The translations under genes were made by a program, and so were the position numbers. The notes beneath the pieces were generated by a model. It did no database searches. It saw only the letters and a program-made list of their open reading frames with translations, and was not told the origin of the DNA. From Skeletonema tropicum (Eukaryota > Bacillariophyta > Thalassiosirophyceae > Thalassiosirales > Thalassiosiraceae), in NCBI GenBank assembly GCA_037178625.1, contig CM074135.1:312001-376000 (forward strand): a stretch of DNA of 64,000 nt. Direction: 5' to 3'. The first letter of the stretch is position 1; every line of letters begins with the position of its first letter. Of the stretch, positions 1 to 50,106 are shown piece after piece.

Positions 1-17
1 TTACCGTAATTGTAACA
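1..17. mobile_element. Solo LTR, 3' end only (window edge)
   Basis: The first 17 bases match the end of the solo LTR at 3966-4208 and are followed by the 5-bp target sequence atgcg (18-22). This shows that a further upstream copy of the unit, or at least its LTR, continues left of the window. Confidence 0.8.
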
Positions 18-474
18 ATGCGCCATTGTAAGTAGTGTCATTAATGGCCAAGCTCCTTGGGAAGTCTCTTGCTTCTTGGATGATGATAACACTGCAGTTG
101 TATCCCCTCGAGCCTTAAGAAAGATGAAAGAATGTGCTTGTCTAATGGATATAGTGAGTAATTTTCTAACAAAGCTTCAAAATCTACCATAACTGCATTT
201 GGTTTGCTTTCATTCAAATGGCCTTGAAAGCTGCTCGGAGGCCTGTTCAACCAGAAACCGGAGTGCAGTGGTTGACTCTTTAGCAGAAGAGCAGGCAAGT
301 ACATAGATGTAGCAGATGTAGGAGAGTAAGAGTGGTGTAAGATGATGTGGGGTAAACAAGTGTAACATAGGTAACAAAATGTCTCTCAGTCGAATATTGT
401 TACACAACAGATAGATTATATATTACAATTTGTACCAGCGAGTCATCAGCGATCGTTACAATCTGTGTAACAGA

Positions 475-545
475 GCGCCGATGGTGTAGTGGTAACATAA
501 ATGCCTTCCAAGCATTTGCCCTGGGTTCGATTCCCGGTCGGCGCA
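475..545 (+). tRNA. trnG-UCC: tRNA-Gly (anticodon UCC), unit copy 1
   Basis: This 71-nt sequence folds as a full cloverleaf. It has a 7-bp acceptor stem (GCGCCGA with TCGGCGC), a 4-bp D stem, an AATGC/GCATT anticodon stem around the loop CTTCCAA (anticodon TCC), and a CTGGG/CCCGG T stem with loop TTCGATT. A run of five T follows nine bases after the tRNA 3' end, fitting RNA polymerase III termination. No CCA is encoded and there is no intron. The same 71 bases recur at five other places in the window. Confidence 0.97.
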
Positions 546-970
546 TCTCATTTTTGCTTTTGCATAGCTCAGTACTCCCACACCAAATGTGATGTTGTTG
601 TTCTACTAATCTTTGTTCATCTGTCTCTCCCATTCTCTTTTGTCTGCCAATAAGGTTCGTTCATGTTTCGGAGGAGTTGACTCTATTGTAGTGGAAACTT
701 TGTAACACAATAATCTATGTGACGAATTGTGTGACGAATTGTGAAGGGTCCCGACATCGGTCAAGACAAGTCTGCTTGTACTTACGGATTTTCTCCCTCT
801 CTTGTAGCTTCAACTTCAAGACGGACGAAGGTGCCTTGTTACGGTAGGATCGGCAGTCCGTGTCAGTAATGCGAGTGTCGAAGACAGTTTGACACTGTCT
901 CTGCTAGATATAGAAGTGGGAGACTGGGAGACCATCACGTCTCCGCGTTCTTCCTTTGTTGTCACTTGGG

Positions 971-2187
971 TCAACCCATCAGTCGTTGCGTTGTGCTGTT
1001 GCGTGGCATTTTCGGCATTTGCTGCGGGAGCATCCTCTTCAGCGGGGCGTGGGTACCTGAGTAGATAAAAGGTTCGTATTCAACAGCGCCGGGAGTAAAG
1101 GCTTCCTTGCATAAGGAGCCAAATTCCGTCATGACATCATCGTGGCGGCAATGAACGAGACAGCCCACCTTGCATTGGATTGGAAGACATGTTCAACCAT
1201 AATTTTTGCACCACATCCACATCCATCGCATAGGTCCGGCATATCCAGCGGCTCAAGGTTCTACTGGAGACGTAGGTTGTCTCAAAACTCTTCCGCTGAC
1301 AGAGCTGTGCCATTGAGGCGGTTTGGGATTGGGACAGTCGTCAGCCAACATCCAGAATCCAGTTTCACAGATCCGTTCCAACCTCCTCTTATCACCTGGT
1401 TCCTCCCTTCCAAACTGGGTGAGAAAGTACTCAACATCAGTCTGCTTCACCATCTGTGAGTCAAACTTTGCCATCTCCACCACTTTCTTGTGGGGGATCT
1501 CGGATCTCGTGCAGAGGGCCCGACGCTAGTCGACCAGGTGCTTCACCGACTGTCGCGACGTGTTGAAGCAATTCTCACTGATTGTTCCACCACACTAATA
1601 GAGAGCAGGTGTCGCAACTTTCCATTTCCAGATAGTTCCAATGGCGAGGTGCCAACGAAGGTGGGATTGGTTCAATCGGCACAAGAAGGGATCCCACGTT
1701 GGGCAAAATACGCGATAGATATGCCACATTCTGAAGGGACGGAGCAAACGCAGAATAAGCCGCCACGCGTTGTGTGTAGGCACCAAGGTACCAGTGACTA
1801 CGTCCGTAACTCAGTTCCGGAATTTTGGCCGCTCCAATGGCAGCTTTTGCAGCTTCCTCGTCTTGCAGGCAGCGTACAAACATGGTGGGATTTGTCTAGT
1901 CCAGGATAGCATCCAATATACCTTTTCGTTGAGAAGCTGAAGCATAGAGTTAGAGTAGCGTTATCAGATGTATTACCGAATGGTTAGTTTATGCCCGTCT
2001 AATAGTTGATGTATGATGTACCCCCATTTCTTGTGGAGAGGTTCTTCCAAAGAATGAGCAAAAATATTCCAGCCTTACCCGCTCCTTGAGACAAGCAGAC
2101 AAAACACCTCTCCTGTTGCAGAGCGATCGTTTCATATGGAACTAATGAGAGTCGTTGGTGACTGTGAAGTGCATGAGAAACAACCAC
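971..2187 (-). pseudogene. Decayed minus-strand coding region of the tandem unit, function unknown
   Basis: Several minus-strand open segments follow one another in different frames: 1999-2187, 1575-1883 (102 codons), 1253-1483 (76 codons) and 971-1168 (65 codons). Their composition is protein-like and better than that of the opposite strand; the 102-codon piece is rich in Leu, Pro and Tyr. Stops and frame changes separate them. Copies lie at 5155-6371, 9338-10250 and 15460-16678. I recognise no domain. A multi-exon gene with unrecognised introns cannot be excluded. The segments in copies 1-3 are the same, and copy 4 adds further changes, so this was already degraded or unusual before amplification. 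Confidence 0.4.
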
Positions 2188-2361
2188 CTCAGGTAGACAG
2201 CTTTGTTAGGTGACTTAATCGACTTGACCGATCGATTTGTAACAGAAGGGTAGGTATGGTAAGTACGATGAGGCTATCTACTCAGAGATGAAATTTTCGC
2301 CAGCCAAAGCACGGGCCAAACCCAAACCGAAATCAATCAGTTAACAACTTCGTTGCAATCA

Positions 2362-3333
2362 ATGAATACAATGGTATCGACTCGAGGTTCCACACGCAAC
2401 GCTAATACGCAGCATGAGAACATGTCCAGCGCTTCTGAGTCTAAGTCTAAGCCGGAGCCCATGCTTAATCTGGGCGAGAAGGCCGACATGGTTCAAGCAG
2501 CATCCGCCGGACTGAAAAAATCCAGCAACAATGTAAGTGATAACGAATGAAGTGCGACTTGTGTTCTCCTTATTCAGATTATCTCATCTTGAGTCTCTTA
2601 CTCGGTAAAAGGTGCAACCAGTTGAGACGATGCAGGAATCCAAGCCCAAAACAAGGAACGGCAAGAAGGAAGAGAGACTACCGTGATTATGAACGGCGAC
2701 GGCGGAGAGAATTTCCATCCCAACGTCGGACCGCCACCAGTCGATCATGGTGTTGCTTTGGTCTACTGCAGAAAGTGCAATTGGGAACATTACCCTGTCC
2801 CTGGCGAATCGTATGAGAGTGAGAAGAAGAGGGTTCGGGATCACGCCAAGAGGCAAAACCCTGACACTTGGACCTGTCGGACTGTTGCGGAACCTCAGCT
2901 CGACTATCAGATGCAATGCATTCCTGTGCTTGGAAAAGACAGAGGAGGCCTGCCTGCTCAAATTCGGGTGGCGACGATCAGTCGATGCAAGATCCCTTCA
3001 TGCCCAAACTCTTGCGTCTTCAAGCCCCACAAGGACACCGCTACGAGGTACAAGGTCGACATCACCCGAGTGATGGGTCTTCCTGAGACTATCTACCCGG
3101 CGGACCACAACCAATACGTGACAGCCAATCATTTGTGTCACCGTGGCGAGTCTTCGGTCGGCTGGCGGAGCCAGTGTGTTAGTCCTCTTCACGTCTGCTA
3201 CTCCACGCTTGCCATCAACAAGGGACGGAACGGCTGCGCAGGTCCTGACCACGGTTGCTGCCACAAGCTTACTGGTTTCGGCAGGTGCATTATTCCTGGA
3301 CCATACTCTGGAAACTTCACAATTGTTCCCTGA
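2362..3333 (+). pseudogene. His-Cys box homing endonuclease-like gene, copy 1 (frameshifted N-terminus)
   Basis: This has the same structure as the intact gene at 16853-17825: exon 1 2362-2532, intron 2533-2611, exon 2 from 2612. One base is missing near 2674 (gaagag-agac against gaagaggagac in copy 4), which breaks the frame shortly after the intron. An in-frame ATG at 2689 still opens a 215-codon ORF to 3333 that contains the whole His-Cys box: TANHLCH, then C and PLH, then INKGRNGC and the final C-C-H-C cluster. A shortened protein could therefore still be made. I-PpoI, the family's best-known member, is itself only about 160 residues long. Confidence 0.7.
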
Positions 3334-3965
3334 ACCCCTCTCTTTTACTTTCAGCTGATAGATCAATCAGTAGATCAATCAGCATGTAAGTAAATAAAGG
3401 GAGTGTTAGAGAACCCCTCTTGTTTAATGTGAGATTCTCTCTCTAAGATATTCTTTAGGAAGAGGAGACGACTACTTCAAGTGTAATGTTAGCAACAAAA
3501 TTTCGTTCCCATATCAACTTTCTCCTCTCTTTCTGCTTTAAGTATTCATACCTTGGTTTCAAAACAATCAATTAAGTACTTCACTTCACCTCACCTCATA
3601 GTATGGTATGATTGTCCTCTCTGACCACCATCGACTATTGCTATTGCGGGGCTTGGTCGAAGATACAAATAATAAATGCTTTACCGTAATTGTACATTAC
3701 ATATCAAAGCAGAGGAAGACGACTCAGACCTCTCAGCGTAACCAAATTCTTCAAAGATCACTCTGCTCCATGAAACAAACGAACACAATAATTTTTCAGC
3801 CTGAAGATCAGGATCTCCTGACGATTGATTTTACCCAGCAGGCCAAAGGACCGACGATTGATGAAGAAAGATGAATTGACACAGTTCAGACGATGACAAT
3901 CTGGCAGAAGCGGAAGCGGAAGCGGAACCTCCCTCGATCCTTAGATCCCTGTATAGCATAATGCG
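3334..3965. other. 3' flank of nuclease gene within unit
   Basis: This AT-rich stretch follows the nuclease stop codon, with an AATAAA-like aaataaag at 3393. A 3608-3874 open frame in this stretch has no recognisable features. The end is marked by a short (gaagcg) triple repeat near 3908-3926, which copy 4 varies. Nothing else is supported. The same sequence recurs at 7517-8148 and 17826-18458. Confidence 0.5.
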
Positions 3966-4208
3966 TGTTAGAATAGACGATATAGGAGTTTGTCCCAGCG
4001 GTAGTCATACCGGGACCGCTTACTCCTTACTTGGCTTGTTCTAGCTCGACTCTCGACGGCACGTCGACCAACGCTCTTGTCCGCCCGAATACACAATAGA
4101 AGTAAATAGTAAAACCCCCTTTACTGTGTGGTGTTGTTCCATATAACGTACGTCCTTAGACGGTTGGAACGGCATCCACTAAACACTTCTATTACCGTAA
4201 TTGTAACA
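3966..4208. mobile_element. Solo LTR (243 bp) with 5-bp target duplication
   Basis: The segment begins TGTTAGAATAG and ends AATTGTAACA, with a 5-bp terminal inverted repeat TGTTA/TAACA. It is bounded by direct repeats atgcg (3961-3965 and 4209-4213). Copies 4/5 at 18454 and the relic at 14566 show the uninterrupted site ataatgcgccattg. TG...CA ends, a 5-bp duplication and no internal coding region are the hallmarks of a solo LTR left by recombination of an LTR retrotransposon. Copia or Gypsy origin cannot be decided from the LTR alone. Confidence 0.88.
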
Positions 4209-4658
4209 ATGCGCCATTGTAAGTAGTGTCATTAATGGCCAAGCTCCTTGGGAAGTCTCTTGCTTCTTGGATGATGATAACACTGCAGTTGTATCCCCTC
4301 GAGCCTTAAGAAAGATGAAAGAATGTGCTTGTCTAATGGATATAGTGAGTAATTTTCTAACAAAGCTTCAAAATCTACCATAACTGCATTTGGTTTGCTT
4401 TCATTCAAATGGCCTTGAAAGCTGCTCGGAGGCCTGTTCAACCAGAAACCGGAGTGCAGTGGTTGACTCTTTAGCAGAAGAGCAGGCAAGTACATAGATG
4501 TAGCAGATGTAGGAGATGGTGTAAGATGATGTGGGGTAAACAAGTGTAACATAGGTAACAAAATGTCTCTCAGTCGAATATTGTTACACAACAGATAGAT
4601 TATATATTACAATTTGTACCAGCGAGTCATCAGCGATCGTTACAATCTGTGTAACAGA

Positions 4659-4729
4659 GCGCCGATGGTGTAGTGGTAACATAAATGCCTTCCAAGCATT
4701 TGCCCTGGGTTCGATTCCCGGTCGGCGCA
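4659..4729 (+). tRNA. trnG-UCC: tRNA-Gly (UCC), unit copy 2
   Basis: Sequence identical to the copy at 475, with the same cloverleaf, TCC anticodon and downstream T-run. Confidence 0.97.
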
Positions 4730-6545
4730 TCTCATTTTTGCTTTTGCATAGCTCAGTACTCCCACACCAAATGTGATGTTGTTGTTCTACTAATCTTTGT
4801 TCATCTGTCTCTCCCATTCTCTTTTGTCTGCCAATAAGGTTCGTTCATGTTTCGGAGGAGTTGACTCTATTGTAGTGGAAACTTTGTAACACAATAATCT
4901 ATGTGACGAATTGTGTGACGAATTGTGAAGGGTCCCGACATCGGTCAAGACAAGTCTGCTTGTACTTACGGATTTTCTCCCTCTCTTGTAGCTTCAACTT
5001 CAAGACGGACGAAGGTGCCTTGTTACGGTAGGATCGGCAGTCCGTGTCAGTAATGCGAGTGTCGAAGACAGTTTGACACTGTCTCTGCTAGATATAGAAG
5101 TGGGAGACTGGGAGACCATCACGTCTCCGCGTTCTTCCTTTGTTGTCACTTGGGTCAACCCATCAGTCGTTGCGTTGTGCTGTTGCGTGGCATTTTCGGC
5201 ATTTGCTGCGGGAGCATCCTCTTCAGCGGGGCGTGGGTACCTGAGTAGATAAAAGGTTCGTATTCAACAGCGCCGGGAGTAAAGGCTTCCTTGCATAAGG
5301 AGCCAAATTCCGTCATGACATCATCGTGGCGGCAATGAACGAGACAGCCCACCTTGCATTGGATTGGAAGACATGTTCAACCATAATTTTTGCACCACAT
5401 CCACATCCATCGCATAGGTCCGGCATATCCAGCGGCTCAAGGTTCTACTGGAGACGTAGGTTGTCTCAAAACTCTTCCGCTGACAGAGCTGTGCCATTGA
5501 GGCGGTTTGGGATTGGGACAGTCGTCAGCCAACATCCAGAATCCAGTTTCACAGATCCGTTCCAACCTCCTCTTATCACCTGGTTCCTCCCTTCCAAACT
5601 GGGTGAGAAAGTACTCAACATCAGTCTGCTTCACCATCTGTGAGTCAAACTTTGCCATCTCCACCACTTTCTTGTGGGGGATCTCGGATCTCGTGCAGAG
5701 GGCCCGACGCTAGTCGACCAGGTGCTTCACCGACTGTCGCGACGTGTTGAAGCAATTCTCACTGATTGTTCCACCACACTAATAGAGAGCAGGTGTCGCA
5801 ACTTTCCATTTCCAGATAGTTCCAATGGCGAGGTGCCAACGAAGGTGGGATTGGTTCAATCGGCACAAGAAGGGATCCCACGTTGGGCAAAATACGCGAT
5901 AGATATGCCACATTCTGAAGGGACGGAGCAAACGCAGAATAAGCCGCCACGCGTTGTGTGTAGGCACCAAGGTACCAGTGACTACGTCCGTAACTCAGTT
6001 CCGGAATTTTGGCCGCTCCAATGGCAGCTTTTGCAGCTTCCTCGTCTTGCAGGCAGCGTACAAACATGGTGGGATTTGTCTAGTCCAGGATAGCATCCAA
6101 TATACCTTTTCGTTGAGAAGCTGAAGCATAGAGTTAGAGTAGCGTTATCAGATGTATTACCGAATGGTTAGTTTATGCCCGTCTAATAGTTGATGTATGA
6201 TGTACCCCCATTTCTTGTGGAGAGGTTCTTCCAAAGAATGAGCAAAAATATTCCAGCCTTACCCGCTCCTTGAGACAAGCAGACAAAACACCTCTCCTGT
6301 TGCAGAGCGATCGTTTCATATGGAACTAATGAGAGTCGTTGGTGACTGTGAAGTGCATGAGAAACAACCACCTCAGGTAGACAGCTTTGTTAGGTGACTT
6401 AATCGACTTGACCGATCGATTTGTAACAGAAGGGTAGGTATGGTAAGTACGATGAGGCTATCTACTCAGAGATGAAATTTTCGCCAGCCAAAGCACGGGC
6501 CAAACCCAAACCGAAATCAATCAGTTAACAACTTCGTTGCAATCA

Positions 6546-7516
6546 ATGAATACAATGGTATCGACTCGAGGTTCCACACGCAACGCTAATACGCAGCATG
6601 AGAACATGTCCAGCGCTTCTGAGTCTAAGTCTAAGCCGGAGCCCATGCTTAATCTGGGCGAAAGGCCGACATGGTTCAAGCAGCATCCGCCGGACTGAAA
6701 AAATCCAGCAACAATGTAAGTGATAACGAATGAAGTGCGACTTGTGTTCTCCTTATTCAGATTATCTCATCTTGAGTCTCTTACTCGGTAAAAGGTGCAA
6801 CCAGTTGAGACGATGCAGGAATCCAAGCCCAAAACAAGGAACGGCAAGAAGGAAGAGAGACTACCGTGATTATGAACGGCGACGGCGGAGAGAATTTCCA
6901 TCCCAGCGTCGGACCGCCACCAGTCGATCATGGTGTTGCTTTGGTCTACTGCAGAAAGTGCAATTGGGAACATTACCCTGTCCCTGGCGAATCGTATGAG
7001 AGTGAGAAGAAGAGGGTTCGGGATCACGCCAAGAGGCAAAACCCTGACACTTGGACCTGTCGGACTGTTGCGGAACCTCAGCTCGACTATCAGATGCAAT
7101 GCATTCCTGTGCTTGGAAAAGACAGAGGAGGCCTGCCTGCTCAAATTCGGGTGGCGACGATCAGTCGATGCAAGATCCCTTCATGCCCAAACTCTTGCGT
7201 CTTCAAGCCCCACAAGGACACCGCTACGAGGTACAAGGTCGACATCACCCGAGTGATGGGTCTTCCTGAGACTATCTACCCGGCGGACCACAACCAATAC
7301 GTGACAGCCAATCATTTGTGTCACCGTGGCGAGTCTTCGGTCGGCTGGCGGAGCCAGTGTGTTAGTCCTCTTCACGTCTGCTACTCCACGCTTGCCATCA
7401 ACAAGGGACGGAACGGCTGCGCAGGTCCTGACCACGGTTGCTGCCACAAGCTTACTGGTTTCGGCAGGTGCATTATTCCTGGACCATACTCTGGAAACTT
7501 CACAATTGTTCCCTGA
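6546..7516 (+). pseudogene. His-Cys box homing endonuclease-like gene, copy 2 (two frameshifts)
   Basis: This is nearly identical to copy 1 and shares its missing base after the intron (near 6857). A second base is lost in exon 1 near 6661 (gggcgaaagg against gggcgagaagg), so the N-terminal region is broken twice. The domain part remains open from the internal ATG at 6872 to 7516, with all the putative catalytic and zinc-binding residues and an Asn-to-Ser change near the N-terminus. Function would depend on internal initiation. Confidence 0.7.
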
Positions 7517-8148
7517 ACCCCTCTCTTTTACTTTCAGCTGATAGATCAATCAGTAGATCAATCAGCATGTAAGTAAATAAAGGGAGTGTTAGAGAACCCC
7601 TCTTGTTTAATGTGAGATTCTCTCTCTAAGATATTCTTTAGGAAGAGGAGACGACTACTTCAAGTGTAATGTTAGCAACAAAATTTCGTTCCCATATCAA
7701 CTTTCTCCTCTCTTTCTGCTTTAAGTATTCATACCTTGGTTTCAAAACAATCAATTAAGTACTTCACTTCACCTCACCTCATAGTATGGTATGATTGTCC
7801 TCTCTGACCACCATCGACTATTGCTATTGCGGGGCTTGGTCGAAGATACAAATAATAAATGCTTTACCGTAATTGTACATTACATATCAAAGCAGAGGAA
7901 GACGACTCAGACCTCTCAGCGTAACCAAATTCTTCAAAGATCACTCTGCTCCATGAAACAAACGAACACAATAATTTTTCAGCCTGAAGATCAGGATCTC
8001 CTGACGATTGATTTTACCCAGCAGGCCAAAGGACCGACGATTGATGAAGAAAGATGAATTGACACAGTTCAGACGATGACAATCTGGCAGAAGCGGAAGC
8101 GGAAGCGGAACCTCCCTCGATCCTTAGATCCCTGTATAGCATAATGCG

Positions 8149-8391
8149 TGTTAGAATAGACGATATAGGAGTTTGTCCCAGCGGTAGTCATACCGGGACC
8201 GCTTACTCCTTACTTGGCTTGTTCTAGCTCGACTCTCGACGGCACGTCGACCAACGCTCTTGTCCGCCCGAATACACAATAGAAGTAAATAGTAAAACCC
8301 CCTTTACTGTGTGGTGTTGTTCCATATAACGTACGTCCTTAGACGGTTGGAACGGCATCCACTAAACACTTCTATTACCGTAATTGTAACA
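8149..8391. mobile_element. Solo LTR, second copy
   Basis: Same 243-bp sequence and ends as at 3966, with flanking atgcg at 8144-8148 and 8392-8396. It was evidently carried along when the unit was duplicated and not inserted independently, because the position within the unit is identical. Confidence 0.88.
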
Positions 8392-10436
8392 ATGCGCCAT
8401 TGTAAGTAGTGTCATTAATGGCCAAGCTCCTTGGGAAGTCTCTTGCTTCTTGGATGATGATAACACTGCAGTTGTATCCCCTCGAGCCTTAAGAAAGATG
8501 AAAGAATGTGCTTGTCTAATGGATATAGTGAGTAATTTTCTAACAAAGCTTCAAAATCTACCATAACTGCATTTGGTTTGCTTTCATTCAAATGGCCTTG
8601 AAAGCTGCTCGGAGGCCTGTTCAACCAGAAACCGGAGTGCAGTGGTTGACTCTTTAGCAGAAGAGCAGGCAAGTACATAGATGTAGCAGATGTAGGAGAT
8701 GGTGTAAGATGATGTGGGGTAAACAAGTGTAACATAGGTAACAAAATGTCTCTCAGTCGAATATTGTTACACAACAGATAGATTATATATTACAATTTGT
8801 ACCAGCGAGTCATCAGCGATCGTTACAATCTGTGTAACAGAGCGCCGATGGTGTAGTGGTAACATAAATGCCTTCCAAGCATTTGCCCTGGGTTCGATTC
8901 CCGGTCGGCGCATCTCATTTTTGCTTTTGCATAGCTCAGTACTCCCACACCAAATGTGATGTTGTTGTTCTACTAATCTTTGTTCATCTGTCTCTCCCAT
9001 TCTCTTTTGTCTGCCAATAAGGTTCGTTCATGTTTCGGAGGAGTTGACTCTATTGTAGTGGAAACTTTGTAACACAATAATCTATGTGACGAATTGTGTG
9101 ACGAATTGTGAAGGGTCCCGACATCGGTCAAGACAAGTCTGCTTGTACTTACGGATTTTCTCCCTCTCTTGTAGCTTCAACTTCAAGACGGACGAAGGTG
9201 CCTTGTTACGGTAGGATCGGCAGTCCGTGTCAGTAATGCGAGTGTCGAAGACAGTTTGACACTGTCTCTGCTAGATATAGAAGTGGGAGACTGGGAGACC
9301 ATCACGTCTCCGCGTTCTTCCTTTGTTGTCACTTGGGTCAACCCATCAGTCGTTGCGTTGTGCTGTTGCGTGGCATTTTCGGCATTTGCTGCGGGAGCAT
9401 CCTCTTCAGCGGGGCGTGGGTACCTGAGTAGATAAAAGGTTCGTATTCAACAGCGCCGGGAGTAAAGGCTTCCTTGCATAAGGAGCCAAATTCCGTCATG
9501 ACATCATCGTGGCGGCAATGAACGAGACAGCCCACCTTGCATTGGATTGGAAGACATGTTCAACCATAATTTTTGCACCACATCCACATCCATCGCATAG
9601 GTCCGGCATATCCAGCGGCTCAAGGTTCTACTGGAGACGTAGGTTGTCTCAAAACTCTTCCGCTGACAGAGCTGTGCCATTGAGGCGGTTTGGGATTGGG
9701 ACAGTCGTCAGCCAACATCCAGAATCCAGTTTCACAGATCCGTTCCAACCTCCTCTTATCACCTGGTTCCTCCCTTCCAAACTGGGTGAGAAAGTACTCA
9801 ACATCAGTCTGCTTCACCATCTGTGAGTCAAACTTTGCCATCTCCACCACTTTCTTGTGGGGGATCTCGGATCTCGTGCAGAGGGCCCGACGCTAGTCGA
9901 CCAGGTGCTTCACCGACTGTCGCGACGTGTTGAAGCAATTCTCACTGATTGTTCCACCACACTAATAGAGAGCAGGTGTCGCAACTTTCCATTTCCAGAT
10001 AGTTCCAATGGCGAGGTGCCAACGAAGGTGGGATTGGTTCAATCGGCACAAGAAGGGATCCCACGTTGGGCAAAATACGCGATAGATATGCCACATTCTG
10101 AAGGGACGGAGCAAACGCAGAATAAGCCGCCACGCGTTGTGTGTAGGCACCAAGGTACCAGTGACTACGTCCGTAACTCAGTTCCGGAATTTTGGCCGCT
10201 CCAATGGCAGCTTTTGCAGCTTCCTCGTCTTGCAGGCAGCGTACAAACATGGTGGGATTTGTCTAGTCCAGGATAGCATCCAATATACCTTTTCGTTGAG
10301 AAGCTGAAGCATAGAGTTAGAGTAGCGTTATCAGATGTATTACCGAATGGTTAGTTTATGCCCGTCTAATAGTTGATGTATGATGTACCCCCATTTCTTG
10401 TGGAGAGGTTCTTCCAAAGAATGAGCAAAAATATTC
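8375..10436. repeat. Tandem unit, copy 3, truncated
   Basis: This copy matches copies 1 and 2 from its start to 10436 and then stops abruptly where Copia-derived sequence begins. It includes the tRNA-Gly and the minus-strand relic but lacks the nuclease gene and the following LTR. The rest of the unit does not resume after the Copia fragment; only an isolated ~150-bp piece (12216-12362) appears downstream. The truncation is therefore a rearrangement and not a simple insertion. Confidence 0.93.
8842..8912 (+). tRNA. trnG-UCC: tRNA-Gly (UCC), unit copy 3
   Basis: Sequence identical to the copy at 475, including the downstream T-run. It lies in the truncated third unit. Confidence 0.97.
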
Positions 10437-10896
10437 AATCCTCTTGTATAAAGGTGATATCTTCTTGAGTGTGTCCGAGTAGTTGGCTCCGTCCAGGAGG
10501 TATTATCGACATTGTAAAGTTCCTGTTGCGGTGTACTCCCCCTTGATGATAAGGTGTCTGACTGAGTTTTGTAGCGGATGTTGGAGTATTCGTAACCTCA
10601 TCTACATAACTGCCATTAGACGTACCGGCCACGGATTTTTGTATGGGCAACGCACGCTTGAATTTAAGCGAGAACGTGGCTCGAAGCTAGAATCACTTGA
10701 GATAGTGAAGATAAAGGGAATGAAGTGAAGATTCGTCACTATGCGCAACATGATTTACAACGTACAGAACTATGCTTGCCAAAGGTGTATACAGGATGAA
10801 GAGTCACTCTCAAGACACGCGATTAGGGACACCATCCATCGTCCATTATGAGATAATATCGGTCGACGTAGATGACATCCTACCAAGAACCAAGAA

Positions 10897-10944
10897 CCCG
10901 AACGAGGTGATGATTAAGCTCCCGAACGAGGTGATGATTAAGCT
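10897..10944. repeat. 24-bp tandem duplication
   Basis: Two head-to-tail copies of a 24-bp sequence starting cccgaacgaggtgatg lie between the arms of the Copia-derived inverted repeat. Confidence 0.9.
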
Positions 10945-11172
10945 CTGAGAAAATAACAAACGACCTCGGGCAGGAAGAAGGACATGGCAAGAGCCTCTGA
11001 GACAACACGATGAATGAGAAGTAGGAGAGAGAACTCAATCAATTAAGTATCCAGAACGATAGAACTAGACACCGGACTACAGCGGTGAAAGAGGTAAAGA
11101 TACCAGCAACTCATTTCTGTACGACGATCAATTTTGACTTGGACCGTCTCTACGATGTGGTCAAAGCATCTC

Positions 11173-11290
11173 GTGACACTCGGGCATACAGAACCGCGAT
11201 GCATATGAGGAGTTACATTGAAAGGATGCACTCGGGCATACAGAACCGCGATGCATATGAGGAGTTACTTTAAAAGGATGTACATTGAAA
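11173..11290. repeat. ~50-bp direct repeat inside Copia fragment
   Basis: The sequence cactcgggcatacagaacc and the following ~30 bases (gcgatgcatatgaggagtta) occur twice, with a shorter third echo (aaaggatgtacattgaaagg). This is a local duplication with no coding signature. Confidence 0.75.
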
Positions 11291-12215
11291 GGTATTTACG
11301 TTTACGGGGAGACCGTAGAGGCTAGTGAAGATTGATCCAGCCGGTATGTAGGGATCATTTTGACCGCACTTCGTCTTGGACACCTCGAAAGCTGTTTACG
11401 GAATTATACGTTACCTGGATAGGTATCCAGATAGGAGACTTGCTATGTCTACAATGCATGTCGAAGAAGCCCCAAAGCATAGCACAGATTGGAAGGATTT
11501 TTACGGGAGACGATTGAGGAAGACCCAGCGGAAATACCAGTTCCGTTGGGAGAGAAGGCGAGGATCAGAATCTTATCGAACAATAAACAAGAAGCAGAGT
11601 ACGGTTGAATTTACAAATCTTGGAGCCGACACCGAGATGGTAACGATGCGCTTCGCGAGAGGTTTGACAGTTGCACTGAAGATCAACCTAAAGATGTTCG
11701 CTGTACCAACTGACTGAGCACATTCGCGGTACCAATTGACTGAACACCTGATTTCTTTTGTGACAATGACAGTATGGTGAAGGTTACGAATACTCCAACA
11801 TCCGCTACAAAACTCAGTCAGACACCTTATCATCAAGGGGGAGTACACCGCAACAGGAACTTTACAATGTCGATAATACCTCCTGGACGGAGCCAACTAC
11901 TCGGACACACTCAAGAAGATATCACCTTTATACAAGAGGATTCAACTTTATATTACCCAAATCAGTGCACGATAGTGGATGAGAAGATTTCCAATGAGAC
12001 TTAGCTTTATGAATCGCAAGCGTAAGCTTACAATTCACGGGGAGCGTTTCGTGTAGCACAGAACGTCTCATTCCCTTAGACGATCACTCACTTCTCACCA
12101 ATCTTTATCCTTGTTATGTATCCTTACCATGTAATTATATTATTAGTTGATGTTATCGCAGTAGTACTGATTTGTCTGTATATTACGTAATCATTAACGT
12201 AGTGTGAGAAACGAA

Positions 12216-12362
12216 TCCATATCCAGCGGCTCAAGGTTCTACTGGAGACGTAGGTTGTCTCAAAACTCTTCTGCTGACAGAGCTGTGCCATTGAGGCGGT
12301 TTGGGATTGGGACAGTCGTCAGCCAACATCCAGAATCCAGTTTCACAGATCCGTTCCAACCA
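12216..12362. repeat. Isolated fragment of the tandem unit
   Basis: About 147 bp match unit positions ~1243-1391 with one substitution, starting atatccagcggctcaagg. It is flanked on both sides by unrelated sequence and is a displaced scrap of the 4.2 kb unit. Confidence 0.85.
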
Positions 12363-13253
12363 TCGGCATCGGCGGCAGCAGTATGCATTGACTGAAGATC
12401 CCATTGCGACGGCGAGACAACTCTTAACCTGGACCTATATCAATGCTATTTCGTTGGGAAGGACTGGGAAGTGGAATTAGACCGTTATGCACCAGAAATG
12501 AGCTCATTCTCCAAGGTAGAAATTGTCTTATTCAGAAGGAGAGAAAGGACGTCGACGATGTCGAATCGTTACATCGTTACTCGAATCGTTACATCGTTAC
12601 AGTCCCAAAGGATTAATCATATCAAACAGCAAAGAAAGGGGTCAGTGGAAGAGGAAGGGAGCACTTCGGAGTAATGCATGGCTCGTCGTAACAAGTTCTA
12701 CGACCTCACCCGTGCTCCTCCAAACCTTACCCTCCCCACTGCCATGAAATACGAAATCTGGATGAGACAAAGCAACTATAGTGCCGCCATCCCTAAAGAA
12801 GGATAGAAAAACACTTCAAATGCCACGAGCTGTCATGGTACACTTGTTTACACGATGCACCACTAACACATGTTTCTCTTTTCTCATCTACTCTCTTACT
12901 CCAGATCCACCGAAATGTTGCATCGACAAGCTATCTACTCCTCTTAAGAACGCTCAAGGCTCACTGTCCCCGATGCAGTCAAAGACAAATGGCCACGATG
13001 CAACTCAATTGGACCTGGAGCCAAATGATGCCGTAACGTACCCTTCCTCAAAGAGGTTCCGCGGTTTGGGTTCCGCCTGCACAGTCAATTGATCTATTAT
13101 GATTAATGAGTACTCCTGCGAAACAAAGCTGTTACATACATCACCTCTATAAAAGTCTTCAAGCGACCAAGGCAAAAGGTGCTGTCTCCATTGGGAAACA
13201 AGTCACTGGAAGCCCCCTTTCCCAGAGAGCAAGAAGTCATGCTTTTCACTACG
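12363..13253. other. No recognisable gene; 20-bp tandem duplication at 12561-12600
   Basis: Short open frames here (to about 100 codons) show no domain or intron structure that I can support. The only distinct structure is a perfect head-to-tail pair of a 20-bp unit starting tcgaatcgttacatcg at 12561-12580 and 12581-12600. Confidence 0.4.
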
Positions 13254-13530
13254 CCAACATCAATGAAGGGTTGATTGGGCCCGCATGGCCGCGGGCGCCG
13301 ACCTCCCCCAGCCCCCCGAGGGGGGAGCACATTCTCATTCGCTTCGCGGTGGGATGTGCTAGCTCCGTGATAGGTTGATTGTAAAGCGTCAGCGTCAGTG
13401 AAGGGTTGATTGCAAAACATCAAGAAGGTTGACTGGGCCTGCATGGCGCAGGCGCCGACCCCCCCCAGCCCCCCGAGGGGGAGCACATTCTTATTCGCTT
13501 CGCGGTGGAGTGGGCTCTATGCTGGGTTGA
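13254..13530. repeat. GC-rich direct repeat pair with hairpins
   Basis: Two ~90-bp GC-rich blocks (13268-13360 and 13427-13515) share the order ggttgaytgggcc, gcgccgacc, cagccccccgag, gagcacattct and attcgcttcgcggtgg. Each contains a short C-run/G-run palindrome (ccccccgaggggg). Spacer copies of gggttgattg lie between and after them. The base composition is far above that of the surroundings. It may be a small mobile repeat; no coding potential is evident. Confidence 0.7.
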
Positions 13531-14440
13531 TTGCAATGTACCTCGCAGCCATGCTTCTTTCTTGATCTCTCTACAAAAAGTATGTGTCATATCAGACACA
13601 CTCGCGACTCAAAGACTTCCATTTTGTGAACTGGGATCTGGGATTGTTCACGTGACACAGCATTGGGGCTTGTCAAGTCACTCCCGCAATAAAGGAGTGA
13701 ACAACGTAGCAACCTCTGAAGAAGGTGATTACCACCGAAATCACAATCCCATGAATAGCAATGCTACGCCTGTCTACTAACGAGTACTGGATAATTGCCA
13801 ATTAGTAGTTAGATAGTATTCTACTTTCTACTTCTGAATCTTAGTCTACCCCCCAACTTAAAACAAAACATCGAAGTATATTAACAGTGTTTTTGCTTAT
13901 GTGTGGTATAAGCCTGCTATTCTCGGCCTTTGCATGACGATGACGAGCGTTGGCATTGGTTCCAGTCGACGTGTGGTGGAAGGGCTGGGTTCAGGAAAGG
14001 GAAAGGGATCATAAAGCGGTATTAGTTGGTGCCGTCTCGTTTCCCATTTGCGCGTTTAATCCAAGAGTTAATCCAAGAGTAACGCCACAGCTAAAGGGTT
14101 GCTTAGTTCAGGCTAAATCAAAAGTAAGGGGATGGGGCAACACATGGCTGAGTTGTCGAGCTATTCCAAGTCTTGGTCCAAGTAAGTGGTTGTAAGTCGG
14201 AGCTATTCCAGAAAGATGAGGTCCGATCGGACTACCGCTCTGACTTACTCTTTCTCACATATTCTATAAGCTGAATCAAGATGAATTGCTAGGATGAACT
14301 CAGCCCTTGTAGCTTGCAGAATACACCTGAACGACGAAGTGGTCGCCTTAGACTACCTCGACCTCGATCGAATCCAGACAATAACAACAACGAGGACCGC
14401 TCCTTGACTTCCAGCTCAGACAAAACATACACGGATGAAG
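13531..14440. other. No recognisable gene
   Basis: Open frames are short and without recognisable motifs. I see no tRNA, TIR or clear tandem structure in this stretch. Confidence 0.35.
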
Positions 14441-14600
14441 ATGATTTAAACACAGTTCAGACGATGACAATCTGGCGGAACCGGAAGCGGAACCTCCCCC
14501 GATCCTTAGATCCCTGCAATTATCTCCCGCACTCTCCACCTAACCGAGATTCAGAAGGTAGCATAATGCGCCATTGTGTGTGTGTAACTTGGCCTTCGGG
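14441..14600. repeat. Degenerate end of a tandem unit with empty LTR site
   Basis: This stretch (acacagttcagacgatgac, then ccgatccttagatccctg) is a diverged version of the unit end at about 3880-3960, with an insertion. It contains agcataatgcgccattg at 14560-14576, the LTR target site without an LTR. It appears to be the remnant of an older unit upstream of copy 4. Confidence 0.7.
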
Positions 14601-14601
14601 C

Positions 14602-14789
14602 ATTACACGTCTTTCCCAACGAATGGACTAACAAGTCCGCAGGCAGTGCTCGTGCAACCCCTAGGCGCTTAATGTTATAGAAATAAAAGACTATACTAAA
14701 CCCCACACTTGAAGATCCAGCTAGCCAACCCATTTACGCAAATTACACGTCTTTCCTAACGAATGGACTAACAAGTCCTCATGCAGTGA
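14602..14789. repeat. 45-bp direct repeat
   Basis: A sequence starting attacacgtctttcc and continuing through aacgaatggactaacaagtc is present at about 14602-14647 and again at 14741-14787 with a few substitutions. It lies directly before the left end of unit copy 4 and may mark the junction of that copy. Confidence 0.75.
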
Positions 14790-14969
14790 GAGGAGCAGGC
14801 AAGTACATAGATGTAGCAGAGTAAGAGTGGTGTTAGATGATGTGGGGTAAACAAGTGTAACATAGGTAACAAAATGTCTCTCAGTCGAATATTGTTACAC
14901 AACAGATAGATTATATATTACAATTTGTACCAGCGAGTCATCAGCGATCGTTACAATCTGTGTAACAGA

Positions 14970-15040
14970 GCGCCGATGGTGTAGTGGTAACATAAATGCC
15001 TTCCAAGCATTTGCCCTGGGTTCGATTCCCGGTCGGCGCA
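14970..15040 (+). tRNA. trnG-UCC: tRNA-Gly (UCC), unit copy 4
   Basis: Identical cloverleaf with TCC anticodon. The flanking unit has diverged but the tRNA has not changed, which suggests selection or gene conversion. Confidence 0.97.
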
Positions 15041-16852
15041 TCTCATTTTTGCTTTTGCATAGCTCAGTACTCCCACACCAAATGTGATGTTGTTGTTCTA
15101 CTAATCTTTGTTCATCTGTCTCTCCCATTCTCTTTTGTCTGCCAATAAGGTTCGTTCATGTTTCGGAGGAGTTGACTCTATTGTAGTGGAAACTTTGTAA
15201 CACAATAATCTATGTGACAAATTGTGTGACGAATTGTGAAGGGTCCCGACATCGGTCAAGACAAGTCTGCTTGTACTTACGGATTTTCTCCCTCTCTTGT
15301 AGCTTCAACTTCAAGACGGACGAAGGTGCCTTGTTACGGTAGGATCGGCAGTCCGCGTCAGTAATGCGAGTGTCAAAGACAGTTTGACGCTGTCTCTGCT
15401 AGAAGTGGGAGACTGGGAGACCATCACGTCTCCGCGTTCTTCCTTTGTTGTCACTTGGGTCAACCCATCAGTCGTTGCGTTGTGCAGTTGCGTGGCATTT
15501 TCGGCATTTGCTGCGGGAGCATCCTCTTCAGCGGGGCGTGGATACTTGAGTAGATAAAAGGTTCGTATTCAACAGCGCCGGGAGTAAAGGCTTCCTTGCA
15601 TAAGGAGCCAAATTCCGTCATAACATCATTGTGGCGGCAATGAACGAGACAGCCCACCTTGCATTGGATTGGAAGGCATGCTCAACCATAATTTTTGCAC
15701 CACATCCACATCCATCGCATAGGTCCGGCATATCCAGCGGCTCAAGGTTCTACTAGAGACGCAGGTTGTCTCAAAACTCTTCCGCTGACAGAGCTGTGCC
15801 ATTTTGAGGCGGTTTGGGATTGGGACAGTCGTCAGCCAACATCCAGAATCCAGTTTCACAGATCCGTTCCAACCTCCTCTTATCACCTGGTTCCACCTTT
15901 CCAAACTGGGTGAAAAAGTACTCAACATCAGTCTGCTTCACCATCTGCGAGTCAAACTTTGCCATCTCCACCACTTTCTTGTGGGGGATCTCAGATCTCG
16001 TGCAGAGGGCCCGACGCTAGTCGACCAGGTGCTTCACCGACTGTCGCGACGTGTTGAAGCAATTCTCACTGATTGTTCCACCACACTAATAGAGAGCAGG
16101 TGTCGCAACTTTCCATTTCCAGATAGTTCCAATGGCGAGGTGCCAACGAAGGTGGGATTGGTTCAATCGGCACAAGAAGGGATCCCACGTTGGGCAAAAT
16201 ACGCGATAGATATGCCACATTCTGAAGGGACGGAGCAAACGCAGAATAAGCCGCCACGGGTTGTGTGTAGGCACCAAGGTACCAGTGACTACGTCCATAA
16301 CTCAGTTCCGGAATTTTGGCCGTTCCAATAGAAGCTCTTGCAGCTTTCTCATCTTGCAGGCAGCGTACAAACATGATGGGATTTGTCTAGTCCATGATAG
16401 CATCCAATATACCTTTTCGTTGAGAAGCTGAAGCATAGAGTTAGAGTAGCGTTATCAGATGTATTACCGAATGGTTAGTTTATGCCCGTCTAATAGTTGA
16501 TGTATGATGTACCCCCATTTCTTGTGGAGAGGTTCTTCCAAAGAATGAGCAAAAATATTCCAGCCTTACCCGCTCCTTGAGACAAGCAGACAAAACACCT
16601 CTCCTGTTGCAGAGCGATCGTTTCATATGGAACTAATGAGAGTCGTTGGTGACTGTGAAGTGCATGAGAAACAACCACCTCAGGTAGACAGCTTTGTTAG
16701 GTGACTTAATCGACTTGACCGATCGATTTGTAACAGAAGGGTAGGTATGGTAAGTACGATGAGGCTATCTACTCAGAGATGAAATTTTCGCCAGCCAAAG
16801 CACGGGCCAAACCCAAACCGAAATCAATCAGTTAACAACTTCGTTGCAATCA

Positions 16853-17825
16853 ATGAATACAATGGTATCGACTCGAGGTTCCACACGCAACGCTAATACG
16901 CAGCATGAGAACAAGTCCAGCGCTTCTGAGTCTAAGTCTAAGCCGGAGCCCATGCTTAATCTGGGCGAGAAGGCCGACATGGTTCAAGCAGCATCCGCCG
17001 GACTGAAAAAATCCAGCAACAATGTAAGTGATAACGAATGAAGTGCGACTTGTGTTCTCCTTATTCAGATTATCTCATCTTGAGTCTCTTACTCGGTAAA
17101 AGGTGCAACCAGTTGAGAAGATGCAGGAATCCAAGCCCAAAACAAGGAACGGCAAGAAGGAAGAGGAGACTACCGTGATTGTGAACAGCGATGGCGGAGA
17201 GAAATTCCATCCCAACGTCGGACCGCCACCAGTCGATCATAATGTTGCTTTGGTCTACTGCAGAAAGTGCAATTGGGAACATTACCCTGTCCCTGGCGAA
17301 TCGTATGAGAGTGAGAAGAAGAGGGTTCGGGATCACGCCAAGAGGCAAAACCCTGACACTTGGACCTGTCGGACTGTTGCGGAACCTCAGCTCGACTATC
17401 AGATGCAATGCATTCCTGTGCTTGGAAAAGACAGAGGTGGCACGCCTGCTCAAATTCGGGTGGCGACGATCAGTCGATGCAAGATCCCTTCATGCCCAAA
17501 CTCTTGCGCCTTCAAGCCCCACAAGGACACCGCTACGAGGTACAAGGTCGACATCACCCGAGTGATGGGTCTTCCTGAGACTATCTACCCGGCGGACCAC
17601 AACCAATACGTGACAGCCAATCATTTGTGTCACCGTGGCGAGTCTTCGGTCGGCTGGCGGAGCCAGTGTGTTAGTCCTCTTCACGTCTGCTACTCCACGC
17701 TTGCCATCAACAAGGGACGGAACGGCTGCGCAGGTCCTGACCACGGTTGCTGCCACAAGCTTACTGGTTTCGGCAGGTGCATTATTCCTGGACCATACTC
17801 TGGAAACTTCACAATTGTTCCCTGA
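16853..17825 (+). CDS. I-PpoI-like His-Cys box homing endonuclease, intact copy
   Basis: Proposed exons are 16853-17023 and 17103-17825. A 79-nt phase-0 intron (GTAAGT...AAAAG) joins them to give 297 aa. Residues 1-90 are Ser/Lys-rich. A CRKC pair lies near residues 110-113. The C-terminal 70 residues match the His-Cys box: H231 in the motif NHLCH (general base position), C233, C246 and H251 (first zinc site), N260 in NKGRNGC (metal-binding Asn), then C266, C273/C274, H275 and C283 (second zinc site). The order and spacing follow I-PpoI, with about eight extra residues between the HLCH motif and the next Cys. The family cuts DNA with a beta-beta-alpha metal fold. The gene is free-standing, not inside an rDNA intron. 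The start is the first ATG of the exon 1 frame. Domain identity is from motif recognition, and cleavage activity is inference. Confidence 0.8.
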
Positions 17826-18458
17826 ACCCCTCTCTTTTACTTTCAGCTGATAGATCAATCAGTAGATCAATCAGCATGTAAGTAAATAAAGGGAGTGTTA
17901 GAGAACCCCTCTTGTTTAATGTGAGATTCTCTCTCTAAGATATTCTTTAGGAAGAGGAGACGACTACTTCAAGTGTAATGTTAGCAACAAAATTTCGTTC
18001 CCATATCAACTTTCTCCTCTCTTTCTGCTTTAAGTATTCATACCTTGGTTTCAAAACAATCAATTAAGTACTTCACTTCACCTCACCTCATAGTATGGTA
18101 TGATTGTCCTCTCTGACCACCATCGACTATTGCTATTGCGGGGCTTGGTCGAAGATACAAATAATAAATGCTTTACCGTAATTGTACATTACATATCAAA
18201 GCAGAGGAAGACGACTCAGACCTCTCAGCGTAACCAAATTCTTCAAAGATCACTCTGCTCCATGAAACAAACGAACACAATAATTTTTCAGCCTGAAGAT
18301 CAGGATCTCCTGACGATTGATTTTACCCAGCAGGCCAAAGGACCGACGATTGATGAAGAAAGATGAATTGACACAGTTCAGACGATGACAATCTGGCGGA
18401 ACCGGAACCGGAAGCGCTCCCTCGATCCTTAGATCCCTGTCCTGTATAGCATAATGCG

Positions 18459-19572
18459 CCATTGTAAGTAGTGTCATTAATGGCCAAGCTCCTTGGGAAG
18501 TCTCTTGCTTCTAGGATGATGGTATAACACTGCAGTTGCATCCCCTCGAGCCTAAGAAAGATGAAAGAATGTGCTTGACTAATGGATATAGTGAGTAATT
18601 TTCTAACAAAGCTTCAAAATCTACCATAACTGCATTTGGTTTGCTTTCATTCAAATGGCCTTGAAAGCTGCTCGGAGGCCTGTTCAACCAGAAACCGAGT
18701 GCAGTGGTTGACTCTTGATAGTCTTTAGCAGAAGAGCAGGCAAGTACATAGATGTAGGAGAGTAAGAGTGGTGTTAGATGATGTGGGGTAAACAAGTGTA
18801 ACATAGGTAACAAAATGTCTCTCAGTCGAATATTGTTACACAACAGATAGATTATATATTACAATTTGTACCAGCGAGTCATCAGCGATCGTTACAATCT
18901 GTGTAACAGAGCGCCGATGGTGTAGTGGTAACATAAATGCCTTCCAAGCATTTGCCCTGGGTTCGATTCCCGGTCGGCGCATCTCATTTTTGCTTTTGCA
19001 TAGCTCAGTACTCCCACACCAAATGTGATGTTGTTGTTCTACTAATCTTTGTTCATCTGTCTCTCCCATTCTCTTTTGTCTGCCAATAAGGTTCGTTCAT
19101 GTTTCGGAGGAGTTGACTCTATTGTAGTGGAAACTTTGTAACACAATAATCTATGTGACGAATTGTGTGACGAATTGTGAAGGGTCCCGACATCGGTCAA
19201 GACAAGTCTGCTTGTACTTACGGATTTTCTCCCTCTCTTGTAGCTTCAACTTCAAGACGGACGAAGGTGCCTTGTTACGGTAGGATCGGCAGTCCGCGTC
19301 AGTAATGCGAGTGTCGAAGACAGTTTGACGCTGTCTCTGCTAGAAGTGGGAGACTGGGAGACCATCACGTCTCTGCGTTCTTCCTTTGTTGTCCTTAGAC
19401 TTAGATCAACCCATCATTTGCATTGTGCTGTTGCGTGGCATTTTCGGCATTTGCTGCGGGAGCATCCTCTTCAGCGGGGCGTGGGTACCTGAGTAGATAA
19501 AAGGTTCGTATTCAACAGCGCCGGGAGTAAAGGCTTCCTTGCATAAGGCGCCAAATTCTGTCATAACATGGG
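18459..19572. repeat. Tandem unit, copy 5, 5' part only
   Basis: This copy follows copy 4 directly and matches unit positions from the LTR target site to about 1128, then ends in unrelated sequence (gggtgttgtaagg). It carries one tRNA-Gly and ends before the nuclease gene. Small differences from the other copies are visible near 19390-19420. Confidence 0.9.
18911..18981 (+). tRNA. trnG-UCC: tRNA-Gly (UCC), unit copy 5
   Basis: Identical 71-nt tRNA with the T-run downstream, in the partial fifth unit. Confidence 0.97.
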
Positions 19573-36590: not shown

Positions 36591-37772
36591 CTTGGATTGT
36601 TACTAGCTCGGTTTAAGAATAGATAGTATTGCCTTTGGCTTATTTGCATGTATTTTACTGTCGTGGCTGTGGTGTATGGAGGGTGTGGTATGGCGGCCGG
36701 CTCGTGAGTTGCTGCGTCATGTTCAACAAGAAGTGTGAGTGATGAGTGAGGTGTGAGGTGGAGGGTTGTGTGATAAGCTTCGTTCTTGATGATAGAAATA
36801 GAACGTTACACTTGTTCTTTTAGATTCAAAGTACGTACTTTACGAAGCTCTTCTCTCTAGAGAGAAAACGCGCAACCACAAGACCAAGCAAGTGAACATG
36901 ATGTAACATTTTATGCTGTAACGGTAGTTACAGCGAATCCGATACTGGCATCACTGGGCATAGGCAAGTAGACAAAGAAGTCGAGCCACTTATGTCATGG
37001 TCATCGAAAGCGGAAGATTCATTGGTAACGACAGATCTGATTACCTCGCCATCTCAAAGTATGTCCAAGAGAAATCATGCCAGGCCACAACCACAAAGCA
37101 AGTTCAGGATGAGATGCAAACGAAATAGTACTACGAGTTCAATCGATCTGACACTATGCCATTACAAACCACAATACAAGCCACAATAATTATTCAAATA
37201 AGTATGGCATTGTAGACGTCCATCGACCAGTATCGTGCAAAAAACACAACCGATTCTAGGAGTAAAACCACAATACTTATTCAAATAAGTATGGCATTGT
37301 AGACGTCCATCGACACAGTATCGTGCAAAAAACACGACCGATTCCAGCTCCTATCTAATTCATCGAGTCTCTCCAACTGGAAAAGGAAACTACTATTGAA
37401 TCCTATTCCTCTCTCACCTCTCTCTCAGAGAGCATGAGTGCTGGATAGATAGAGAGGAAGAGAGAAGAAAAAGAGAACTAGAGGAGGTACCTATCACGAA
37501 TCTCTTGCTACAAAATATTGAAGGAGGATCGGGCTGGGTTGACTTTTTGAGACAGGCATCTTGATATCATAGGAATTGATACTGGAAATGGCGCCAAGTC
37601 ATCATCAAAAATCAAAATCTGATCGGAGAGGGCGAGGCACCACATCATACAGCTCACCATGCTGCATAATTACTGCTCATAAACTCGGAACTCGGAGGAT
37701 ACGGCAAGAAAGAATAGCTCATACATTCCTCTGCTGCTGAGATATCCTTCCAGCTCTTCTACTAATGCTAAG
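36591..37772. other. Intergenic region, partly inverted duplicate of 49.1-49.8 kb
   Basis: The stretch 36970-37760 shares several blocks in inverted orientation with 49100-49760: the gtcatggt/accatgac stretch, ctgattacctcgcc, aagtatggcattgtagacgt, gcgccaagtcatcatcaaaa and ctcaccatgctgcataatta. A ~60-bp segment (aataattattcaaataag...) is also tandemly repeated at 37190 and 37270. No gene is supported. A GGCGCC site lies at about 37589. Confidence 0.6.
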
Positions 37773-49041: not shown

Positions 49042-50106
49042 CTTAGCATTAGCAGAAGAGCTAGAAGGAATGTATGAGCTATTATCTCTTGCCGTGTCCT
49101 CCGAGTTCCGAGTTTATGAGCAATAATTATGCAGCATGGTGAGCTGTATGATGTGGTAGCTCGCGCCTCGCCCTCTCCGATCAGTTTTTGATTTTTGATG
49201 ACGACTTGGCGCCTTTTATTCCAGTTTCAGCAAGATGCCTGTCTCAAAAGTGTCAGCATCCGGCCTCCGGCCGGCTTGGAACCTCAACCAAGGGTAAATA
49301 AATTCCTCGACTTCAATACTATTCTATGTAAGATAGCAAGAGTATCGTACCTCTCCCCATCCCTCTTCCATCTCCCTCTCTATCCAAACACACGTGCTCT
49401 CTGAGAGTGAGAGGTGAGAGAGGATTTTAGGATTCAATTGTAGTTTCCATTTCCAGTTGGAGAGAATCGATGATTTAGATACTTAGGAGCTTGAATGTGT
49501 GGATGATATGAACGTCTACAATGCCATACTTGTTTGAATAATTATTGTGGTTTGATGTGACATAGTTTCAGATCAATGAAACTAGTAGTATGTACACATT
49601 TCATTTGTATCTCAACCTGAGCTTGCTTTGTGGTTGTGGACTGAGCTTGCTTTGTGGACTGGCATGATTCTCTTGGAATTGTTTAGGCGAGGTAATCAGA
49701 TCATTCGTCACCATCTGCCGCTGTCAAAGACCATGATACTCAGTGGCTTCGACTTTGGCTACTTGCCTCTCTATGCTTGTGCTACTATGTAGATACAAGT
49801 ACAAGTACCCTGGTAGATACATCATATCGGATATCGGATTCGCAGTCACAACTAACATGTAAATTGTAACATCTGTACTCTATTCAGCTTACTTTCCGTT
49901 CGTAAGCTTCGTAGAACAGTAAAGCGATAGGATTACACTGTAAAGATAATTTACATAATTTACAGTACAATCTACGAAGCTGACCCAAGTTCCGAATCCA
50001 ACAGATGACAGATAATACTTTCTTCGCTTTGACCTTCTTTCGACTTTCCCATCATCACCATAGAACATCAAAATCTTCTTGAACATAAATATTCGTAAAT
50101 GCAATA
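49042..50106. other. Intergenic region, inverted duplicate of 37 kb and 46.2 kb blocks
   Basis: The part 49100-49760 matches 36970-37760 in inverted order, and 49865-49945 matches 46190-46265 inverted. A sequence starting CAAGGGTAAATAAA at 49292 resembles the terminal repeat of the hAT-like element at 26683 but has no partner nearby. No gene is supported. Confidence 0.55.

Follow-up and report, generated by a model that had tools for sequence, protein, structure and literature searches.

Why does a diatom carry a gene for a homing-type nuclease outside any intron, and what is that gene doing there? His-Cys box enzymes are known chiefly from introns in ribosomal DNA (rDNA) and, since 2022, also from KolobokP transposons. 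The window analysed here, a stretch of 64,000 nucleotides (nt) from a chromosome of the diatom Skeletonema tropicum (assembly GCA_037178625.1, contig CM074135.1, positions 312,001 to 376,000), holds a gene predicted to encode a 297-residue protein with a His-Cys box like that of the homing endonuclease I-PpoI. The gene is repeated, together with a transfer RNA (tRNA) gene, in a tandem array. We asked what family the protein belongs to, how it differs from its relatives, and whether the gene is best seen as a selfish element, a host gene, the cargo of a transposon or a dead remnant.

Homology and key residues

Sequence homology of the predicted protein to His-Cys box nucleases is firm. A phmmer search of PDB chains (E<=10) returned seven sequences, of which five were forms of I-PpoI (best E 1.4e-8, over residues 188-290) and two were TFIIF beta (E 0.93-0.95), making I-PpoI the only significant solved relative. 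A profile of the clade described below also matched I-PpoI (E 3e-8). In one search, for which the query profile included an I-PpoI fragment, 47 homologous proteins were found at E<=0.01, and for this reason a chance resemblance is very unlikely. H231 (numbering of the 297-residue protein) aligns with I-PpoI H98, and N260 with N119. The catalytic His occurs in 47 of 48 alignment rows, the exception being an I-PpoI record with Gln, and the metal-binding Asn occurs in all 48. The same alignment contains seven zinc ligands (C233, C246, H251, C266, C273, H275 and C283); the eighth, C41 in I-PpoI, pairs with C160 in alignments A4 and A6 but with S181 in the third, A3. Judging from these alignments, all eight ligands of the two zinc sites appear to be present, the eighth being less sure. 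With the PDB match, the catalytic His, the metal-binding Asn and the zinc ligands in place, the I-PpoI-like His-Cys box domain that an earlier note on this sequence had proposed is confirmed.

The resemblance to I-PpoI extends to the NKGRN motif and to the way in which the C-terminal zinc site is ordered and spaced. The window gene differs in lying outside an intron, in an N-terminus about 130 residues longer, in having Asn in place of Ser97 and Ser in place of Glu114 (N230 and S255 here, both at positions conserved in the group), in a loop of 11 residues rather than three between the equivalents of C100 and C105, and in an added C-x4-C pair. The N-terminal extension had previously been put at about 220 residues, a figure that we correct from the 230 residues that precede the catalytic His here and the 97 that do so in I-PpoI. 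Alignments disagree on the position of the equivalent of Arg61, a residue that touches the product phosphate in I-PpoI (PMC11325842). A match to PF05551 had also been anticipated; it exists and is the sole Pfam match, but at 18.2 bits for the whole protein (E 0.003) and 19.4 bits for exon 2 alone it lies under the curated cut-off of 27. Because of this score we file the protein as a divergent relative, outside PF05551 membership. By the sub-cut-off score and the changed Ser97 and Glu114, we call it a divergent branch of the His-Cys box family, a placement that sequence comparison suggests. NCBIfam gave no family for three proteins searched.

Phylogeny and signature residues

Three overlapping searches, yielding 3, 47 and 22 proteins, provided the relatives P0001-P0061. 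The tree has 57 rows; P0003, P0005, P0018 and P0041 were deliberately excluded from it, and P0060 was removed by a filter on motif and length. The window protein formed a clade with P0001, P0002, P0006, P0008, P0011 and P0048-P0050 (9 of 57 rows), on a branch of 1.24 with support of 100/100 in a tree whose bootstrap is not fully settled; the clade had been named from alignments before the tree was built.

A survey of signature residues covered 64 sequences (the 61 relatives and three array copies), of which 63 had a parsed motif, 12 in the clade and 51 outside it. Its rows are not independent, since they include sets of closely similar sequences: P0006 with P0011, P0049 with P0050, P0004 with P0005, and the array copies with one another. 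S97 and E114 were both retained in 51/51 non-clade sequences and in 0/12 clade sequences. At position 97 the clade has Asp (9/12) or Asn (3/12, the array copies), and at position 114 it has Ser (7/12), Thr (4/12) or Ala (1/12). Between the first two zinc ligands of the box, eight clade sequences have a loop of 11 residues, three a loop of 5 and one a loop of 13; in 48 of the 51 other sequences the length of this loop is 3. Within the 75 residues that precede the box, every clade sequence and one of the 51 others have a C-x3..5-C pair. The catalytic His and Asn are retained in all 12 clade sequences with a parsed motif, and P0001, with an altered C-terminus, lacks two zinc cysteines, ahead of which P0003 ends. 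C160 is retained in eight of ten clade rows of alignment A6, with a gap in the other two, and a Cys counterpart of C113 is present in the clade members that extend that far. We infer that the N-terminal cysteines, C160 and the added pair could build a third zinc site. On present alignments the clade is separate from the other His-Cys proteins collected, and it is a new finding here.

P0008, from Skeletonema dohrnii, is the sole clade member with a species name, and the label "diatom clade" derives only from this protein and the window. Relatives in other samples are 66-95% identical to the query, and that in Skeletonema dohrnii 44% over half of it, suggesting that the family has lasted. No relatives were confirmed in virus contigs or prokaryote genome contigs, each scanned with two peptide patterns.

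Gene model

The coordinates and gene model given in the earlier note hold: an ATG at 16853, a GTAAGT donor at 17024, an AAAAG acceptor ending at 17102, a stop codon ending at 17825, and a product of 297 amino acids (Table 1). Coding scores were computed from codon use trained on 11 frames, eight from the window and three from silicon transporter loci. The proposed frame of exon 1 had the top score (+0.20 bits/codon) and no stop; one reverse frame was likewise free of stops, but scored -0.06 bits/codon. Scores were negative in all six frames of both the intron and the 5' flank, and the exon 2 frame was the best of six, yet at only +0.01 bits/codon. Codon use thus supports the predicted gene model, short of proof. 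Because an in-frame ATG within exon 2 would likewise yield an unbroken domain, exon 1 is not required for the nuclease part.

The gene's own spliceosomal intron, which the earlier note had singled out, is plausible as a prediction but weaker as a novelty. Spliceosomal introns of 47 and 49 nt, also near the 5' end, are described in His-Cys box genes within rDNA group I introns (PMC9548176). Those genes lie inside group I introns, whereas none was found around the window gene.

Table 1. Positions of the nuclease gene, its domain and the tandem array in the window.
Feature	Position	Strand	Remarks
Nuclease gene (unit 4)	16853..17825	+	297 codons, two exons
Exon 1	16853..17023	+	57 codons, phase 0; best coding frame of the stretch, without stop
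Predicted spliceosomal intron, 79 nt	17024..17102	+	GTAAGT...GGTAAAAG; stops in all three forward frames
Exon 2 including stop codon	17103..17825	+	Contains the entire nuclease domain
C110-x2-C113, N-terminal cysteine pair	17259..17270	+	By-eye alignments; putative zinc binding
C183-x4-C188 pair before the active site, clade-typical	17478..17495	+	Motif survey
His-Cys box: N230 H231. C233 ... C246 ... H251 ... N260 ... C266 ... C273. H275 ... C283	17619..17780	+	Alignments, PDB match
Tandem array	1..19569	+	Partial unit -1379 (outside the window) to 325; starts 333, 4517, 8700, 14828, 18769 (last partial)
tRNA-Gly (TCC), unit 4	14970..15040	+	Copies at 475, 4659, 8842, 18911; lone copy at 20589
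Dispersed-element fragment in unit 4	15236..16470	-	Other copies mostly 74-81% identical, many contigs
Unit-1 nuclease copy	2362..3333	+	Unit-4 splice model stops after 81 amino acids; domain open 2626-3333
Unit-2 nuclease copy	6546..7516	+	Unit-4 splice model stops after 50 amino acids; domain open 6809-7516
Unit 3, nuclease part mostly replaced by other DNA	10437..14788		Short unit pieces 12218-12361, 14438-14516

Tandem array and decay of the copies

The repeated unit of about 4.2 kb consists of a tRNA-Gly, a fragment of a dispersed repeat and then the nuclease gene. Successive unit starts are 4184, 4183, 6128 and 3941 nt apart. Identity is 99.95% between units 1 and 2 and 98.3% (over 3641 columns) between units 1 and 4, and the intron sequence does not differ between the latter two. 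An intact spliced frame is present in one of the four nuclease copies, that of unit 4, and the other three are broken or truncated; the partial copy to the left of the window is interrupted by two stops in one matched frame. The domain is open in units 1, 2 and 4, where a later start is therefore conceivable. Nine whole codons of exon 2 differ between units 1 and 4, seven of them by nonsynonymous and two by synonymous changes, one gapped codon being omitted. There is no sign of purifying selection in the codons since duplication, though the changes are few.

Searches of the assembly (78.4 Mb, 125 contigs; matches are lower bounds) with the window protein, P0049 and P0006 matched just this array, placing the family at one locus. 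A PF05551 profile search of the assembly missed the array itself, and such profile searches are not exhaustive. A second PF05551-like place was noted at C16:1060281-1060400 / L024:1441-1620 (minus strand), with a short frame and a score of 25 bits, under the cut-off.

Domestication, raised as a possibility in the earlier note, has to be weighed against these counts. The clade would then serve some function of the diatom cell, such as recombination or DNA processing, and the array would be a decaying duplicate set. The uniting of distant members in the clade, the catalytic His and Asn kept throughout it, and the presence of one member in a named diatom protein set are all consistent with a host nuclease. 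However, the single locus, the three broken or truncated copies of four, and the neutral-looking excess of nonsynonymous codon changes, few as they are, argue against one, and we consider it improbable.

The run 17509-18398 is identical between units 1 and 4 (p 0.0001 when 45 differences were placed uniformly 20,000 times), in a stretch that was chosen by inspection. An exchange centred on a cut site was considered and rejected, as the run indicates uneven exchange or patchy homogenisation, not a cut site. Within unit 3, inverted repeats of 165 nt (10434-10598 and 11781-11945, 99% complementary) bound a 1.5-kb stretch that begins at the point where unit 3 diverges from the others, and this stretch, 10434-11945, looks like a DNA transposon insertion.

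The tRNA and the dispersed element

The tandem unit does bear a tRNA-Gly, as the earlier note had emphasised, and one follows each of the five unit starts, but the tRNA seems a mere passenger. A functional link between nuclease and tRNA was rejected on account of the lone tRNA-Gly at 20589, near-copies on contig C1 and the duplication of the whole segment; the association looks passive, the tRNA-Gly travelling with the dispersed-repeat fragment in a segmental duplication. Rfam at gathering scores found seven tRNAs in the window and nothing else.

A tie between the nuclease and the adjoining dispersed element was likewise rejected, because the nuclease search gave no copy at the element's other places (the best 40 of 138 candidate copies of the element were scored). 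One copy of this element, at L045:4316-8026 (minus strand), contains an open frame of 1237 amino acids in which a YADD-like box can be read by eye. The frame had no match in Pfam (E<=0.01) or among PDB chains, and the name reverse transcriptase is unconfirmed.

It is also conceivable that the nuclease is cargo of a transposable element, with tandem multimers arising perhaps by nuclease-induced unequal crossover. There is precedent in KolobokP transposons, described from seven animal phyla, which carry an I-PpoI-like nuclease, form multimers and prompted an induced unequal crossover model (PMC9587614). As in KolobokP, the window nuclease lies outside an intron and in a tandem multimer, being present in units 0, 1, 2 and 4. 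In contrast to KolobokP, no transposase domain was seen in unit 4, where five open reading frames beside the nuclease matched no Pfam family at E<=0.1, smaller frames lying outside the scan. According to the KolobokP paper, the group containing these nucleases conserves S97 and E114, I-DirI differing at 114 (PMC9587614); both residues are changed here. KolobokP elements are further marked by a DDD/E transposase, by terminal direct repeats that are long and have short inverted termini, and by a TTAA duplication. The nuclease gene, unlike the adjoining repeat fragment, is not dispersed, and KolobokP is reported from animals. We regard the cargo explanation as quite improbable.

Genomic setting

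The gene is in a diatom nuclear chromosome. Rfam at its gathering threshold found no group I intron in the window, and the gene is outside any detected intron; its description as free-standing stands on this sequence evidence, for this locus only. A 5.8S ribosomal RNA was not found in the assembly (best 39 of 2975 candidates scored), which may not include rDNA. The 15-bp recognition site of I-PpoI had no exact match in the assembly, a result without bearing on the target, as rDNA is perhaps not included.

The lack of an intron around the gene, the broken copies and the array copies' Asn (for Asp) at the equivalent of I-PpoI position 97 are all compatible with a dead remnant, that is, an endonuclease gene that once belonged to a group I intron, escaped from rDNA by chance and is now drifting, inactive at this locus. 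On the other hand, unit 4 retains a full frame, splice sites, and zinc and catalytic residues, and this explanation, although a serious one, seems to us unlikely.

No diatom nuclear His-Cys box gene was named in the titles and abstract beginnings that searches of open-access literature brought up, a scope outside which most subscription journals fall. The diatom genes treated in PMC11019260 are LAGLIDADG genes in plastid introns, not His-Cys box genes. We provisionally regard a diatom nuclear His-Cys box gene as undescribed so far.

Proposed mechanism

The explanation that we favour, and think somewhat likelier to be right than wrong, is a selfish homing-type endonuclease gene that is nearing the end of its life cycle. 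Our view of its activity, dimerisation, homing and origin is inferred from family resemblance. As a dimer stabilised by zinc, the protein would bind DNA and use one metal ion to cleave a specific site. In I-PpoI, His98 activates water, and the single metal is bound by a conserved Asn (PMC11325842); here H231 would activate water and N260 would hold the metal. In the nine other clade members, the Asp before the catalytic His may supply a second metal ligand, because Asp40 of T4 endonuclease VII, directly before the catalytic His, binds metal together with Asn62 (PMC6083498). The Asp-His ... Asn arrangement of these members recalls T4 endonuclease VII and F-CphI (DHHRN type; PMC6083498), a likeness of active-site description, not of sequence comparison, and one from which the window locus departs in having Asn-His instead of Asp-His. 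The gene would share ancestry with intron-borne enzymes and would have been duplicated along with the tRNA-Gly and the repeat fragment, probably via unequal exchange, and the array would now be decaying, down to one intact spliced frame.

Several results weigh against this explanation. In addition to the sub-threshold PF05551 score, the array copies have Asn at position 97 where 9/9 other clade members have Asp, and owing to this replacement the window locus may be inactive or altered in activity. Structure models were of low confidence, with predicted local distance difference test (pLDDT) values of 31.1 from a 6-sequence alignment and 53.8 from a 48-sequence alignment, and a Foldseek search with a low-confidence model returned three matches at E<=10, all with E of 7 or more and none of them I-PpoI, leaving the beta-beta-alpha metal fold expected of the group a prediction. 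An assembly-wide look for group I introns covered the best 26 of 3108 candidates, a scope that may miss introns in rDNA.

A more far-reaching explanation, which we offer as very doubtful, is that the clade represents a new His-Cys subfamily that left introns in diatoms, gained a zinc knuckle beside the strands that read the DNA, and remodelled its active site into an Asp-His...Asn metal site resembling that of Endo VII. Its enzymes would cut their own repeat unit, so that inter-unit repair would amplify and homogenise the array.

Other features of the window and assembly

A frame at 56077-57390, which is some 38 kb away from the nuclease gene, resembles a DDE_Tnp_4 transposase (E 1.9e-26). A long minus-strand frame at 46993-49113 contains a 279-bp tandem repeat (47055-48389) and by eye is like another frame, at 37683-38879, whose AP2 match falls below the cut-off. 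Silicon transporters (PF03842) gave nine matches over the cut-off in the assembly, the best at 818.5 bits, and five of them lie on the window's contig, C9, at 400-431 kb. Together with the homologue in Skeletonema dohrnii, these transporters point to a diatom host.

Significance

The interest of this locus rests less on the tRNA array than on the clade, with its altered active site. A clade that includes a free-standing diatom member would add a further setting for His-Cys box enzymes, and it suggests that Ser97 and Glu114 of I-PpoI are replaceable. The clade is also a possible source of new site-specific nucleases from algae.
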